Source: a virus
DNA: 39,324 bases
IMG/VR virus record: IMGVR_UViG_3300044655_001447
Coordinates: 1-39,324 of that record
Strand: one strand, 5' to 3'
Notes under the pieces: generated by a model
Databases searched by the model: none
What the model saw: the letters and a program-made list of their open reading frames with translations, nothing else
What the model was told of the DNA's origin: nothing
Position numbers and translations under genes: made by a program
Shown here: positions 22,564-34,512 of the stretch, one piece after another
How positions within the stretch are numbered: position 1 is the stretch's first letter
Layout of the letters: the number at the start of each line of letters is the position of its first letter

Positions 22564-23001
22564 ATGGCGTACAGAACAATTTTTAATCCTAAAAATCCAA
22601 GAAAATACGCAGGAGATGTATCCAAAATTGTCTGTAGATCTATGTGGGAAAGAAATGTATGTGTATTCTGTGATGAACACTCAAGTATATTAAAATGGTC
22701 ATCTGAAGAAATTGCCATTCCATATATGAGTCCTATTGATAAAAAGATGCACAATTACTATCCAGATTTTTTAATACAGTTTCAGAACACAAATGGTTTA
22801 CAAAATTGGATGGTTGAAGTAAAACCCAAAAAACAAACCATGATAAAGGAAAATGCTTCTAAAAAAGAGAAGTTTACTTGGATCGTAAATAATTGTAAAT
22901 GGAACGCAGCTAAGTCGTATTGTGATAAGAATAATATGGTTTTTAAAATAATAACAGAAAAAGAACTTTTTTCAAATGGCAATACCACCAAATCAAACTA
23001 A
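22564..23001 (+). CDS. 4: head completion nuclease gp4
   Basis: A 145-residue homologue of T4 gp4 (gp50), which finishes filled heads, probably by trimming or protecting DNA ends. The family line SMWERNVCVFCDEHSSILKW then SSEEIAIPYMSP and YYPDFLIQF, MVEVKPKKQ is complete. PDF and EVK give a PD-(D/E)xK nuclease core (YYPDF with VEVKP). The start abuts a late promoter with no ribosome site. Its 3' end overlaps the following gene by 26 nt. Confidence 0.93.
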   Translation: MAYRTIFNPKNPRKYAGDVSKIVCRSMWERNVCVFCDEHSSILKWSSEEIAIPYMSPIDKKMHNYYPDFLIQFQNTNGLQNWMVEVKPKKQTMIKENASKKEKFTWIVNNCKWNAAKSYCDKNNMVFKIITEKELFSNGNTTKSN

Positions 23002-23563
23002 TTCAATCACAGCAATCAAAGACTTTTTTGATAGACACAAAGGACTACAGAGACCTAATAGATTTTCTATGTCCTTTAATGGACTGCCACCAGCATTAAG
23101 TGGATTAGTACCAGCCAATGACTTTCAACCAATCGGAGTAATGATTGGTGCAAGAGCTATTGATTCTGTAGCAGACAATCTTGCAGGATATGGTTTGGGT
23201 AGAAGCGTTCCTAGATCTCAAAAATTTCCTCAAGGAATTATGTTAACTTTTGCTGTAACCAATGATCATTTTATTACAGATTTTTATGATACATGGTTTA
23301 ATTTAATTTACTCGGGAGGAAGACAAAGAGGTACATACAAAACACCTTTTCAACTTTCATACTATGATGATATAATTGCAAAAACACAAATGAAAATTAA
23401 TATACTTGATCCTAACGGTAATATTAATAGAATATATACATTTTTTGAAATATATCCTATTGAATGTTTACCAATTGAATTGAGTATGATGAAGACTAAT
23501 GATTATATGACATATCAAGTGTTGATGATGTTCAGAGATTTCACTTTTAAACCAGGTACATAA
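22976..23563 (+). CDS. 54: baseplate tube initiator, gp54/gp19 fold
   Basis: A 195-residue tube-fold protein: RPNRFSMSFNGLPPAL near residue 25, MLTFAVTNDHFITDFYDTWF in the middle and MKINILDPNGNINRIYTFFE then YPIECLPIELSMM at the end, the order seen in gp19-type strands. Together with the gp48-like protein at 21707 it is the best candidate for gp54, which nucleates the tube on the hub, although T4 gp54 is longer (320). It overlaps gp4 and is followed directly by the gp26-like chaperone gene. Confidence 0.65.
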   Translation: MAIPPNQTNSITAIKDFFDRHKGLQRPNRFSMSFNGLPPALSGLVPANDFQPIGVMIGARAIDSVADNLAGYGLGRSVPRSQKFPQGIMLTFAVTNDHFITDFYDTWFNLIYSGGRQRGTYKTPFQLSYYDDIIAKTQMKINILDPNGNINRIYTFFEIYPIECLPIELSMMKTNDYMTYQVLMMFRDFTFKPGT

Positions 23564-23564
23564 T

Positions 23565-24227
23565 ATGGATATACTTAATTCGTTGGAAAGTCTTTTACCA
23601 AAATATCAGACTACTCTTCCTTTCTCGAAACAAACTGTTTCGTTTGTTCCATTCAGAGTAAAGGATGCAAAAAATATCTCTATTATCTTACAAGAAGAAA
23701 ATAGAAAATTGGCATTAACTAGTTTAGTTGATATTTTAAAAACTAATGTTAAAGATATTAATGTTTTAGAATTGTGTATGGCAGATGCTGAATTTCTTTT
23801 TTTACAAATAAGATCAAAGAGTGTAGATGAACAATTAAATTTGATTCATAATAAAGAACGAATTCAAGTTTCTATTTCTGAGATATATGGAAAAAATAGT
23901 ATATCATCGCAAACTATAGAGTTAACTAATAATGTTAATTTAGTATTAGAAACACCAACGATAAAAGATTTATTAAAATTAAATACACTGAATAAAGAAG
24001 ATGTAATTCAAGCATGTATTAAAAAAGTTATATTTAATGGTGAGATCTTTCATGTTAGTAAATATGTTACAGAAGAAATTAAATTAATTTTAGATAATTT
24101 ACCTATGACCGTTCTTCCTAAATTTGAAGAATTTTTAAAGACCCAGCCTGATTTGTTTTTAATTATCAAAACGGAAGATGGTGATAAGGAGGTAAATGGA
24201 TTTTTAACTTTTTTTACTTATCGGTAA
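23565..24227 (+). CDS. 26: gp26-like baseplate hub assembly chaperone
   Basis: A 220-residue member of the T4 gp26 baseplate family. The N-terminal FVPFRVKDAKNISIILQEEN and the NVLELCMADAEFLFLQIRSKS block are characteristic. gp26 is needed for hub assembly in T4; the family also resembles tail assembly chaperones such as P2 E and lambda G. The zero-frame end (GFLTFFTYR) carries a T-TTT-TTT slip site, and a -1 frame opens downstream without its own start codon, so a longer product of about 284 residues is predicted. It starts one base after the upstream stop. Confidence 0.85.
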   Translation: MDILNSLESLLPKYQTTLPFSKQTVSFVPFRVKDAKNISIILQEENRKLALTSLVDILKTNVKDINVLELCMADAEFLFLQIRSKSVDEQLNLIHNKERIQVSISEIYGKNSISSQTIELTNNVNLVLETPTIKDLLKLNTLNKEDVIQACIKKVIFNGEIFHVSKYVTEEIKLILDNLPMTVLPKFEEFLKTQPDLFLIIKTEDGDKEVNGFLTFFTYR

Positions 24228-24418
24228 AGTTTTTTGATTTAAAAGATTACTATGTTACTAACTTTACCCTGATAAATAATTTTAATTGGAATCTGTTTGA
24301 TTTAGAAAATATGGTATGGTGGGAACGCGAAGTTTATGTTAAATTGTTAGTAGATTATCAAGATCAAAAGAACCAAGAAAATATGTCACACACACCAAAC
24401 ATGCAAGGATTTAATTAA
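24188..24418 (+). CDS. frameshift extension ORF, gp51/E'/T-like
   Basis: The -1 frame relative to gp26 is open from 24188 to the TAA at 24416-24418. It encodes, after the slip site, 67 residues that include NNFNWNLFDLENMVWWEREV and YVKLLVDYQDQ. The pattern (short hydrophobic helix, acidic turn, W/E-rich amphipathic helix) is like the downstream partners of tail assembly chaperones. The first ATG comes only in LENM, leaving too short a product. The natural reading is a gp26 C-terminal extension made by -1 frameshifting. The stop overlaps the ATG of the next gene. Confidence 0.7.
   Translation, partial: GGKWIFNFFYLSVKFFDLKDYYVTNFTLINNFNWNLFDLENMVWWEREVYVKLLVDYQDQKNQENMSHTPNMQGFN
24209..24215 (+). 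promoter_or_regulatory. -1 frameshift slippery heptamer T TTT TTT
   Basis: Seven Ts stand in register with gp26 codons as ACT TTT TTT ACT, so both tRNAs re-pair perfectly after slipping back one base. This is a canonical X XXY YYZ site. Confidence 0.72.
24223..24268 (+). promoter_or_regulatory. frameshift-stimulating stem
   Basis: GGTAAAGTT (24223-24231) pairs perfectly over 9 bp with AACTTTACC (24260-24268), leaving a 28-nt loop. The stem begins 7 nt after the slip site, within the usual 5-9 nt spacer. The large loop could fold further or form a pseudoknot. Confidence 0.62.
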
Positions 24419-24888
24419 TGGTAGACGATAATAATATATCATTGGATGTAACCGCAGAACAACAGCTATTTGCCCCATCTATTAAACCTTCAGATATTCG
24501 ATCAGCGCAACTTGATAGTAGTATTCCCGAAGATATGGATTTACCTGAAAGTGTTGTGTTTAAAACAATTGTTGATCCACCGTTACTGGATTCAATCGTT
24601 TATCAAGCAACTAAAGTAGATGTATCTGAAAAAACAAGTGCAGAAGTCGCTGACGTTGGAATAAAATTACAAGTTAAATTTGATCCAGAAGCATCCTATA
24701 AAAAATTAGAAGAAAATGTAGATGGTATAAGAGATAGTGTAACAAGTTTGGCAGATAATGCACAGAATAAATGGATACCAAATCCAAGTCCAGCTTCAAA
24801 GTTTGAAGAACGACCAACACTAGAACAAACTAATTTAGTATTTGATGCCAGAGCAGAACGTTTTGCTCAATATCCAACATGGGCATAA
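24418..24888 (+). CDS. unknown 156-aa protein after hub chaperone
   Basis: Not recognised. It is acidic, with an Asp/Ser-rich N-terminal part (IRSAQLDSSIPEDMDLPES) and a predicted helix near residues 98-120 (YKKLEENVDGIRDSVTSLAD), then a Pro/Asn-rich stretch and a short C-terminal helix. The start codon overlaps the stop of the frameshift extension. In lambda and P2 the gene after the chaperone pair encodes the tape measure, but this protein is far too short for that role. It ends at a bidirectional terminator. Confidence 0.7.
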   Translation: MVDDNNISLDVTAEQQLFAPSIKPSDIRSAQLDSSIPEDMDLPESVVFKTIVDPPLLDSIVYQATKVDVSEKTSAEVADVGIKLQVKFDPEASYKKLEENVDGIRDSVTSLADNAQNKWIPNPSPASKFEERPTLEQTNLVFDARAERFAQYPTWA

Positions 24889-24913
24889 AAAAAGCCCCTT
24901 GCGGGGCTTTTTT
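24887..24913. terminator. bidirectional intrinsic terminator
   Basis: A GCCCC/GGGGC stem with a 4-nt TTGC loop is flanked by A and T runs on both sides, so it gives a U-tract in either direction. It separates the converging gene at 24418 (+) and gp32 (-) and touches both stop codons. Confidence 0.92.
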
Positions 24914-30810: not shown

Positions 30811-33800
30811 TTAGTATGGACCTTGTGCTTTTATTATAATATGATTTCTACCATATGTCAACCCACTTCTTGCTGTATTTGGTTCATATGTCGTATCCCA
30901 TGGGCACAATTCTTCATCTCTGTTTATTTGATCAAATACATCATCAAACATTATATTATATTTTTCAAATCTAATATGATAATTTGGATCTAGATCACTG
31001 ACAGCTTTCAGTCTATCTATTGTAGTAGATAGTGAATTAATTGGTACATTTGCTTGCACACAATCGCCTACTGACCATGCTACATCGCATCCGTTAGCAG
31101 TTGTGCTTCCTGTGATTCCATCTTTGGCACCACATCCCCATTCAAATTTTCCCATAATATCGGGTGGAATTTTATAACCATCTACTGAACGTTGGTGGCA
31201 TAAATATTTTTTCCAATTAATCATCATATTTCTAGGAAAACCAAATCCAATACCACTTCCCGCACCTCCACAAAATTGACATGATCCATCTTCATTAAAA
31301 CATCCAGTTGGTGGATCTGGGGCAGGACATGAACATCTTGCAGCACATCCTAAATTGCCGAGACCAGTATACGCATCCACTTGTCCAAATGCCGTAAAAT
31401 AAAATCTTTCAGAGTCCAATCCAAATCTATGTGGTATAGTGTTATTATCTAAACAAGTAGGTTCATATACTCCCTGTGGAATTTCTGGAAAACAAGTATA
31501 ATTAAAATCTGCAGCACCATATCCATTTATTCTTGATAGATTTGTATTACACCCATAACTTGGAAACAAAAATGGTCCAATATTTGCTGCATTGGGATTA
31601 TCTTTATTACAAGGACATATTGCAAATCCACCTTCTCCTGCACAAAAACCACCATTAAATACATCACTACATGGAGGAAAAGATCCATCCCTACATGGTT
31701 GTCCTGGTTCTGGTATTTCTGGGTCTGGTTCTTCAGTAGTATTGGATGCACCACATGGACAATGTATGATACAATTACCTACTTTAGCTATCGATGGCCA
31801 TTTATCTACATATATTCTTGCATTTTGAAAAATATCTCTGGGTTTAGAAAATTCATTACCACATATATTTCCAGAAATACATCTATATTCTTCATATTGA
31901 TGAACATGTGTACCAAATACCTCACTTCCATCTTCATACTTAAAGTTTAATTCATTTTCTATGGCAGATGATGATTGAGATATAGGCATATAAGAACTTC
32001 TATATCTCAATATACCAACATAACCTTTATGTCCAGCAGCACGTGGAATATCAGCAATCGCATCATCAAATCGTGCTCCGTGTTCTTTAAATATTGCATA
32101 TACACTGTCTGGTGGATCAATCATTTTAATATCACCAGCAGGAATATATAAATTAGGAGAACATCCTGCACCCAATAAAGTCCAACATTGCGTTATACAT
32201 GTTTGTATCGGTTCACTGGGCCAAGTACCGTATTTGGGAAATTCAATAGGACAGTCGGTTGGACATGCAACACCCGACCCATTGACAATCATCAATTGTC
32301 CACCCTTTGGATTTATATTAGTAAGGGGGTGAGTGCGTGAGCCAAATTTTTCTGCACAATTTGTAAATGCTTGATCATTTGGTCCAGAACAATTAGAACA
32401 TCCGGTTTCATCAGTTTCAAGTATTGCTCGAATAATAATTGGACCACGTTCAGAAAAAGATACACGTCCTCCAACATTATCAGAATTTGGTCCATCTATA
32501 TTAGATTCCCAACAAGAAGCAAATGGTGATTCTTCAAACTCACCAAATATAACATGATCATCACAAGCATCTTCAATACTTACAGTTTTACCATCTTCAT
32601 TAATTGTAATTCCGGATGGACAATCACAACCAAGACTAGAAAACTGAACTTCTTCTACTTTTTGTTTTAAACTAATTCTAAATTTAGTTTCTTGTGGAGT
32701 ACCTGCATTAAAAATCTTTACTCTATTACATACTGTCACGTCCCAATCTCTAAAAACTCTCCACACTTTTCCAGGAGCAATATCACTATGATCTAAAGTA
32801 AATAATACTCTTAATGCACTAGTTGGTGTTTGATGAATCCATATACCATCTGCTTCTCTTCCGTTAGACCATTGATATCCAGCAAGTTCTAATGCACCAA
32901 TTTCATCAGGTGCTTCATAATCCATACCAAAACACCATTCACCAAACCCTAAACCCTGTGCGCCTGCATCTGGGCTACAAAAAGGATTTTTTCCACCTTC
33001 CTCTACTCCAAAATCATATTGAGTTGGAACAATTACATTTAAACTTACTTTTTTACTTGATAAACCTAATGTATATCCTTGTGGGCCACATGCTCCACAT
33101 GCTCCACAAAATCCAGATGGTGCACATGTATAACCTGTTCCATCACAACCACAAATAGTTGTACCAGTTAATCCGGCTGGACCTTCATATAAATCCCATT
33201 CAGGTGTGGTGTATCTATTGAAAGGATTCATCCAACCAAAGAAATGCATATTAGCTGTACTTCCATCGAAGGGCAGACTTCCTACAAAATTAGGATTTGA
33301 ATTGGAATATGCTTTACAACCTTCTGGAACGTCTTCCCATCCAAATGGAGTTCCATTGTCTGGATCTAATTGAGTACATATTTGATCAGGATCTAAAAAA
33401 GTACCACTGCAACAAGCATCAACATCTTGACCAAATGTACCAGAACATTTAGTTTGCACTAAGGGGCATTGTCTTATCCAGGGAGTGTCAGAATATGACT
33501 CTGGGTCTGCAAGAGCTTCTTCAACTTGTTGTTTGGTAAATTTAGATCCCTCAAAAACTGCATTACCAGACCAACATGCTGCAGAATTTTGATCTATATC
33601 CATATTTTTTTTAAATCTATATGGCCAGGGTCCACGAGGCATACGAGCAAAATCACGTGCGCATATAGCTGGAATTCCATCATCATTAAATGTATCAAAA
33701 AATACTTCACAATTTGATAATTCTCTCCAAGGATAATTTTCATTTACATTAAATGAATGACAAGCATCTGGATGTGGTCTTACATTTCTAGCAGGACCAG

Positions 33801-34512
33801 TACGTTTAATATCAATAACTGTTGAATATGTATTTCCTTGACTATTATATTTTTCTATTTTTAATTCAAATGTAAAATTAAAAAAGTGATTATCATTATA
33901 ATATGTTGGTTGACAACATGCATCCAAACCAGTATATCCAGATGTGCCACAACACCCAACAGAACCACAACAACCACAAGAACCACTCAATCCAGATGGA
34001 CCACAACATCCAGTAGGTCCTGCTGGTCCTGGACCAGATGTACCAGAACAACCTGGAGTTCCAGAAAAAAGATCAACATTTGTCATATTGATTCCATTGA
34101 ACCAACATGGAGAAATATCACCATAGAATGCAGCATCACCCCATCCATATGATGGTATATCTAATAAATTGGAAGGAGTTCTAAAAGAACTTGTAAGACC
34201 TGCAAGGGGATCTTCTGGATCTATTATTTTTATTCGAGCAACATCTGGTTGTCTACCTATTTCACAACAACTCTGTGAGTCTTGTCCCCATGGAGGACAA
34301 TCGTCACAATTAATTAAATTTAAACCAGTCATTGGGTGACCAACACTTGGTAACTCTGTAGTAATAGTACCGGTAGATGCCCAATTTGGTTGAGTTGGTT
34401 GTTCTAATATGCCTTCATTTGCAAAAGGATCTTGTGGATCATATGTATTTCGATACCAATGATCTCTATCGCACCAACTACATTTATTACAACAGCACGC
34501 TTTTTTTGGCAT
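30811..34512 (-). CDS. giant cysteine-rich protein with collagen-like tract
   Basis: A 1233-residue protein, the largest in the window, with about 75 Cys by my count (near 6%). Residues 151-197 are an almost perfect Gly-X-Y repeat in which X and Y are often Cys (GCC, GSC, GCC). A second short Gly-X-Y tract is near residues 465-480 (GFCGACGACGPQGYT). The rest is beta-rich, Pro/Gly/Asn-rich and dotted with CxxC and CC pairs. It begins MPKKACCCNKCSWC. It has a late promoter and an AAGGG ribosome site, so it is likely virion-associated. No homologue is recognised. Confidence 0.75.
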   Translation of the reverse strand: MPKKACCCNKCSWCDRDHWYRNTYDPQDPFANEGILEQPTQPNWASTGTITTELPSVGHPMTGLNLINCDDCPPWGQDSQSCCEIGRQPDVARIKIIDPEDPLAGLTSSFRTPSNLLDIPSYGWGDAAFYGDISPCWFNGINMTNVDLFSGTPGCSGTSGPGPAGPTGCCGPSGLSGSCGCCGSVGCCGTSGYTGLDACCQPTYYNDNHFFNFTFELKIEKYNSQGNTYSTVIDIKRTGPARNVRPHPDACHSFNVNENYPWRELSNCEVFFDTFNDDGIPAICARDFARMPRGPWPYRFKKNMDIDQNSAACWSGNAVFEGSKFTKQQVEEALADPESYSDTPWIRQCPLVQTKCSGTFGQDVDACCSGTFLDPDQICTQLDPDNGTPFGWEDVPEGCKAYSNSNPNFVGSLPFDGSTANMHFFGWMNPFNRYTTPEWDLYEGPAGLTGTTICGCDGTGYTCAPSGFCGACGACGPQGYTLGLSSKKVSLNVIVPTQYDFGVEEGGKNPFCSPDAGAQGLGFGEWCFGMDYEAPDEIGALELAGYQWSNGREADGIWIHQTPTSALRVLFTLDHSDIAPGKVWRVFRDWDVTVCNRVKIFNAGTPQETKFRISLKQKVEEVQFSSLGCDCPSGITINEDGKTVSIEDACDDHVIFGEFEESPFASCWESNIDGPNSDNVGGRVSFSERGPIIIRAILETDETGCSNCSGPNDQAFTNCAEKFGSRTHPLTNINPKGGQLMIVNGSGVACPTDCPIEFPKYGTWPSEPIQTCITQCWTLLGAGCSPNLYIPAGDIKMIDPPDSVYAIFKEHGARFDDAIADIPRAAGHKGYVGILRYRSSYMPISQSSSAIENELNFKYEDGSEVFGTHVHQYEEYRCISGNICGNEFSKPRDIFQNARIYVDKWPSIAKVGNCIIHCPCGASNTTEEPDPEIPEPGQPCRDGSFPPCSDVFNGGFCAGEGGFAICPCNKDNPNAANIGPFLFPSYGCNTNLSRINGYGAADFNYTCFPEIPQGVYEPTCLDNNTIPHRFGLDSERFYFTAFGQVDAYTGLGNLGCAARCSCPAPDPPTGCFNEDGSCQFCGGAGSGIGFGFPRNMMINWKKYLCHQRSVDGYKIPPDIMGKFEWGCGAKDGITGSTTANGCDVAWSVGDCVQANVPINSLSTTIDRLKAVSDLDPNYHIRFEKYNIMFDDVFDQINRDEELCPWDTTYEPNTARSGLTYGRNHIIIKAQGPY
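33922..34062 (-). repeat. collagen-like Gly-X-Y coding tract
   Basis: This encodes residues 151-197 of the giant protein: sixteen consecutive triplets starting with Gly, one of them shortened by a residue, several containing Cys-Cys. DNA on the plus strand is a matching CCA/ACC-rich repeat. Confidence 0.78.

Follow-up and report, generated by a model that had tools for sequence, protein, structure and literature searches.

Organization of the gp26 locus

The DNA analysed here, called the window below, is the whole stretch of 39,324 nucleotides that makes up positions 1 to 39,324 of the IMG/VR virus record IMGVR_UViG_3300044655_001447. Directly behind a tail-tube-like gene it carries a gp26-like gene, whose 3' end is overlapped by a second, -1 reading frame. 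The features of this region are as follows.

22976-23563, + strand: tail-tube-like gene directly 5' of gp26 (phrog_45 tail tube, 7.6e-14)
23565-24227, + strand: gp26-like gene, short product of 220 aa, putative TAC-N equivalent (PF12322, the T4 bacteriophage base plate protein family, E=1.6e-21; phrog_150, 5.3e-21; AlphaFold2 model, pLDDT 90.2)
24186-24193, + strand: internal Shine-Dalgarno sequence AAGGAGGT, proposed frameshift stimulator, 15 nt 5' of the heptamer
24209-24215, + strand: slippery heptamer T_TTT_TTT in the gp26 frame
24216-24222, + strand: 7-nt spacer between heptamer and stem
24223-24231, + strand: 5' arm of the stem, GGTAAAGTT, which includes the gp26 stop codon
24260-24268, + strand: 3' arm of the stem, AACTTTACC
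24209-24418, + strand: -1 frame, predicted gp51 or TAC C-terminal domain (phrog_634; alignment A3, 38 sequences)

The heptamer is read in the gp26 frame as T (24209), TTT (24210-24212) and TTT (24213-24215), and its end precedes the final base of gp26 by 12 nt; the zero-frame stop is TAA at 24225-24227. The two arms of the stem pair at 9 of 9 positions around a loop of 28 nt. The -1 frame is free of stops from 24188 to TAA at 24416-24418, which leaves 69 open codons from the heptamer onward, and this stop shares its final A (24418) with the ATG that follows. A product fused across the heptamer would have a calculated length of 284 aa. An earlier note on this DNA had given the gp26 end, the heptamer, the spacer, the stem, the extent of the -1 frame and its overlap with the ATG, all of them exactly; the 5' Shine-Dalgarno element is additional to what it described.

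The reading frame that starts at this ATG (24418-24888, 156 aa) produced a weak match only, to phrog_7361 (0.045). Within 24418-24912 it is followed by a probable intrinsic terminator, recognised by eye as GCCCCTTGCGGGGC with a run of T, and a gene on the opposite strand faces it. No tape measure gene was recognised among the scanned reading frames of the window, including those beside the gp26/gp51 locus; in HTVC008M and Cr30 a tape measure is annotated 3' of the locus. A further reading frame, at 30811-34512, encodes a tail-fibre-like protein of 1233 aa with a Gly/Cys-rich collagen-like stretch (phrog_5073, 2.4e-7).

Conservation of the slippery heptamer

Since the 42 open reading frames of at least 120 aa in the window contain 30 in-frame heptamers of the T6H or A6N kind, that of gp26 included, the heptamer alone was rejected as evidence. 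The gp26 heptamer is the only one of the 30 that lies within 30 nt of the end of its reading frame. All 13 close relatives carry it. A collection of 98 loci, assembled mainly through gp26 homology, has it in frame without exception; the collection consists of 14 close loci, the 80 best of 425 at greater distance, four named phages and the window, less one locus (L014) in which gp26 is cut off. Its spelling in these loci is T_TTT_TT followed by C (55), T (42) or A (1), and its end precedes the final base of the gp26 stop by 3 to 27 nt. The -1 frame continues into the gp51 domain in all 98, the contig end cutting it off in four (L036, L043, L064 and L097).

The heptamer was likewise present in 160 of 160 loci found through the -1 domain (the 80 best of 600 in one scan, the 80 best of 155 in another), each with at least 119 open gp26-frame codons 5' of it. 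This set overlaps the previous one, contigs already counted being included, and 89 of its loci are at most 95% identical (ungapped) to any earlier locus. The search patterns of the A5 scan are clear of the heptamer; one of the two used in the A6 scan starts with FFYL, over the heptamer, and the 80 loci of the latter are therefore not fully independent of it.

From 106 heptamer-bearing loci we picked 73 representatives at most 80% identical to one another, leaving aside those that lack the heptamer (T4, 44RR and three records of Ackermannviridae type). Here the site reads T_TTT_TT with C (43), T (29) or A (1) at its end, and is preceded by S (41), D (15), N (8), H (3), T (2), R (2), G (1) or A (1). 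The T_TTT spelling occurs in just 1 of 57 other Phe-Phe pairs of the same genes, a figure that speaks of codon choice and not of presence, because the set was chosen among heptamer-bearing loci. Alignment of related phages, which the earlier note had proposed as a check, thus found the heptamer throughout these sets with the -1 frame open behind it. Because it is conserved in this way, a heptamer at the end of gp26 goes beyond chance, and we regard its conservation across relatives as decisive.

The -1 frame as a protein-coding sequence

When read from 24212, the -1 frame of the window matches phrog_634, the baseplate hub assembly catalyst (gp51), with E=1.9e-14. Differences between pairs of representatives, which are not independent of each other, number 8864, 5611 and 16446 at its codon positions 1, 2 and 3. 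Such third-position-rich change indicates that the -1 frame evolves as protein. In 6 of the 73 representatives, and in 8 of the 160 loci, the -1 stop on the 5' side directly adjoins the heptamer, and the -1 frame must therefore be entered there at the heptamer or later.

Shine-Dalgarno element and downstream stem

The sequence AAGGAGGT, a perfect Shine-Dalgarno in the window, is shared by 71 of the 80 window-type loci, where it stands no more than 30 nt ahead of the heptamer (the window-type set comprises 80 loci and the window, none skipped for length, and yields 29 representatives). Codon usage in these representatives departs at this place from that of the remaining gene: over the last 11 codons the AAG:AAA ratio for lysine is 26:2, compared with 92:528 outside them (p=1.4e-18), and the GAG:GAA ratio for glutamate is 30:27, compared with 60:374 (p=2.7e-10). 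In the wider set, pairing with the anti-Shine-Dalgarno sequence is strongest where it ends 6-7 nt ahead of the heptamer, with a mean of -6.1 kcal/mol (background -0.02), and a glutamate before glycine at the Shine-Dalgarno position is spelled GAG:GAA 37:9 vs 8:30 elsewhere (p=5.7e-8). In the window, the element ends 117 nt before the first usable -1 start (24311), far beyond the usual distance between a Shine-Dalgarno sequence and its start codon, and for this reason it is not plausibly there for initiation of the -1 frame. An ATG at 24196, which opens a mini-ORF, was also considered as the purpose of the element; by eye, this ATG is missing from two loci (L007 and L008). The codon bias makes it likely that the Shine-Dalgarno element stimulates frameshifting.

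The segment 24216-24275 folds with -10.3 kcal/mol (z -2.34), 4 of 200 shuffled sequences being equally good, and a 50-nt window at the locus gave a z of -1.59 only. The nine pairs of the stem are all kept in 26 of the 29 window-type representatives and eight of them in the other 3, with the 5' arm at the same distance from the heptamer in all 29. In one locus (L282) two pairs are replaced by others through changes on both sides. A nearer 3' arm is the predicted partner of this 5' arm in six of the 29. Comparison of all types gave, for the 50 nt 3' of the heptamer, a mean z of -1.73 (n=72, one of the 73 representatives being too short) vs -0.41 in 219 control windows, and windows further downstream averaged -0.43; 35 of the 72 loci fall short of z -1.5, so the stem is not universal. 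In the clade of the window, pairing and double changes together indicate a downstream structure kept with covariation. No report of a Shine-Dalgarno element or stem at this site was found among the literature matches listed, which is no proof of absence.

Named phages, T4 and 44RR

Twelve further named records were inspected, and the heptamer is present in eight of them: pf16, Melnitz, Cr30, Yut3, Vibrio D481, LPCS28, Atu_ph07 and Aeh1. Six of them, pf16 and Melnitz being left out, were scanned for phrog_634, and their -1 reading frames matched it in Vibrio D481 (1.1e-21), Cr30 (3.6e-20), Aeh1 (2e-14) and LPCS28 (6.1e-11) and weakly in Yut3 (0.05); in the jumbo phage Atu_ph07 the -1 frame behind the heptamer (L109:2642-2875) matches no PHROG family. 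In Aeh1 (L110:3199-3378) and LPCS28 (L107:2660-2836) the gp51 domain is unannotated; it follows T_TTT_TTC and is encoded in the -1 frame relative to gp26.

The four records without the heptamer are Vibrio D504, Vibrio 207E48.1, SKML-39 and 44RR. Vibrio 207E48.1 and SKML-39 belong to Ackermannviridae, and Vibrio D504 is unclassified in its record. In these three the gp26 stop overlaps a -1-frame ATG as TAATG. Their -1 frames gave phrog_634 values of 0.1 (Vibrio D504), 0.016 (Vibrio 207E48.1) and 4.4e-4 (SKML-39), on which basis homology to gp51 is likely for SKML-39 only. A weaker slip on CTT TTY or ATT TTC may occur in the Ackermannviridae-type loci (L105, L106 and L108).

T4 presents another arrangement. 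Its genes 26 and 51 are divergent neighbours whose products both match PF12322 (8.8e-64 and 3.9e-52) and are thus paralogues, and the end of gp51 matches phrog_634 (1.2e-23). T4 gp51 is collinear with the computed fusions across the frameshift junction; past the junction its identity to six of them is low (6-13 of 48-49 residues). No heptamer is present at the end of T4 gene 26; T4 itself carries a short gene together with an in-frame long one. Among 17 records, two copies of PF12322 were counted only in T4 and 44RR and one in the other 15, of which the six viral contigs are possibly incomplete and in which a very divergent copy could be missed. In a tree of 34 rows the T4-type 26 and 51 groups join (93/87, under the star threshold of that tree), apart from the frameshifting and Ackermannviridae genes; the tree has very long branches and is midpoint-rooted, without an outgroup. 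One sequence (L121) was dropped from an alignment because of stops; its T4-type gp51 homologue (L121:2001-2746) is unreadable in one frame, owing to an indel or a sequencing error.

Fold of gp26

The AlphaFold2 model of gp26, made with 63 sequences, has a pTM of 0.87. With it, Foldseek returned nothing at E<=0.001, the HK97 chaperone appearing at E 1.3. VIA-align 2 placed the HK97 tail assembly chaperone gp13 (2ob9_A) second of 994 chains, with Z 7.3 over 86 residues at 4.3 Å, behind the uncharacterised 3fgx_A (Z 7.8) and ahead of 5ir0_A (Z 4.9) and the next chain (3.0). A profile search of solved structures with alignment A1 found no chaperone, its sole hit being a ribosome hibernation factor (E 0.16). 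Because a Z under 8 can reflect a common arrangement, the resemblance of the predicted gp26 fold to the HK97 tail assembly chaperone is moderate. The gene architecture and the paralogy of T4 gp26 and gp51 point to short and long products that share an N-terminal domain, as do TAC-N and TAC-NC. Leiman 2010 (PMC3004832) counts T4 gp26 and gp51 among the hub assembly chaperones, describes gp51 as not in the particle and cites genetic work that places gp26 in the hub.

Entry into the -1 frame

It might be argued that gp51 is a separate small protein with its own start, either an internal ATG or a site of termination-reinitiation helped by the Shine-Dalgarno element, and that no fusion is made. Indeed, a first -1-frame ATG stands 9-33 nt past the first base of the heptamer in 38 of the 73 representatives (at 15 nt in 23 of them), so that a separate short gp51 is also possible there; a short CDS is annotated at the -1 frame in four named records; and Shine-Dalgarno sequences before gene ends may, according to Atkins 2016, aid restarts at close starts. 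The earlier note had named an independent start, or loss of the heptamer with both reading frames kept, as observations that would speak against frameshifting. Both occur in the three Ackermannviridae-type records with their TAATG start, and neither was seen in the examined close relatives. The window itself fits such initiation poorly. As the earlier note had maintained, it offers no usable -1 start: the first ATG, GTG or TTG, at 24311, lies 84 nt past the end of gp26 and 102 nt past the start of the heptamer, about halfway through the conserved gp51 domain, the first half of which would be lost, and the Shine-Dalgarno element is too far from it, as described above. In 21 of the 73 representatives the first 45 nt counted from the start of the heptamer contain no ATG, GTG or TTG. 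Moreover, a separate gp51 leaves unexplained both the heptamer and the in-frame fusion of T4, and we consider it quite improbable.

The long form might also arise by slippage of RNA polymerase on the T run, which would give mRNAs of altered length. The run comprises 7 T in the window, and T7 and T8 are found in 15 and 14 of the 73 representatives; 44, however, have just T6, compared with the runs of 9 cited for bacterial slippage (Atkins 2016). Transcriptional slippage alone would not select a Shine-Dalgarno element on the 5' side and a stem on the 3' side, and we hold this explanation to be very improbable. That the -1 frame was left behind by the decay of an in-frame fusion, or arose from an assembly error, is scarcely credible, given that many separate contigs, as well as isolated phages, share this frame relation and that substitution is rich in third positions. 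Ribosomal -1 frameshifting, which the earlier note had put forward, is supported by the conserved heptamer and open frame, by the stem kept with two double changes in the clade of the window and by the missing start in the window and in the 21 representatives.

Discussion

The analysis of the locus suggests that -1 frameshifting at 24209-24215 very probably yields a long gp26-gp51 chaperone, the gp26 gene thus giving rise to two proteins. Most ribosomes would stop at 24225-24227 and release the short form of 220 aa. A minority would pause, with the 5' AAGGAGGT paired to 16S rRNA and the stem ahead, slip back by one base on T_TTT_TTT, bypass the stop and complete the form of 284 aa with the gp51 domain. 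If the two products act as do lambda G and GT, many short and few long copies would coat the tape measure protein, and the C-terminal domain would recruit tube or hub subunits. The same two products would be made in T4 and 44RR from paralogous genes, 26 for the short form and 51, in frame, for the long one, a duplication there appearing to replace the frameshift.

In phage P2, a -1 shift near the end of the short chaperone gene E adds a C-terminal domain (E+E'). The relation of lambda G to GT (Atkins 2016) is of this kind too, and the arrangement proposed here agrees with it. The genes 26 and 51 of T4 encode the same two domains as the window (PF12322 in both products, phrog_634 in gp51); they are divergent, separate genes and have no heptamer, whereas the window has one gene with it. 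Escherichia coli dnaX (Atkins 2016) has the Shine-Dalgarno sequence, the slippery heptamer and the stem in the same order as found here. Its heptamer, however, is A_AAA_AAG and its shift leads to a shorter product, in contrast to T_TTT_TTT and the longer product predicted for the window; the spacing of the Shine-Dalgarno element also sets the two apart: the window has 15 nt, and in the wider set the peak falls at about 6-9 nt. Atkins 2016 mentions a 5' Shine-Dalgarno sequence for dnaX and for an estimated 56% of IS elements.

The link of gp26 and gp51 to tail chaperones, drawn in the earlier note, gains from the PF12322 paralogy, the collinearity of gp51 and the moderate likeness to the HK97 fold; as a proposal it is not new. 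The chaperone genes of T4-like phages had been identified by Vladimirov, Gautam and Davidson 2022 (as related in PMC12846349 and PMC10274946), which limits novelty here. T4-like TAC-N genes are described as carrying poly-T slippery sequences (PMC12846349), and some T4-like phages as having one short and one longer fusion gene in place of frameshifting (PMC10274946); in Atkins 2016, G-T frameshifting is called widely conserved in long-tailed phages 'except T4'. The principle of frameshifting in T4-like chaperones is therefore already published, and the window is a well-supported new example of a mechanism widespread among the relatives of T4.

The simplest reading of the sequences would place frameshifting first and a single duplication later, in the line of T4 and 44RR, a direction that rests on parsimony because the tree is long-branched and midpoint-rooted. 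We lean slightly towards a broader proposal, in which a dnaX-like cassette of three parts (Shine-Dalgarno element, T_TTT_TTY and stem) predates the split of the T4 lineage, relatives of T4 and 44RR left recoding through one duplication into genes 26 and 51, and Ackermannviridae switched to a TAATG restart. If this were true, one machine family would hold three natural solutions to one stoichiometry problem, and frameshift, duplication and restart could be compared in nature as means of setting the ratio of the two chaperone forms.

The proposed frameshift also bears on annotation, which it would correct for a group of marine phages that is abundant. According to Sullivan 2010, gp51 of cyanophages has only about 20% of the length that other gp51 proteins show, and its shortness could be explained if the remainder were supplied by gp26 via the frameshift. 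Of Aeh1 and LPCS28, the same source reported gp51 as missing in Aeh1 alone, in which the domain has now been located by its phrog_634 match.
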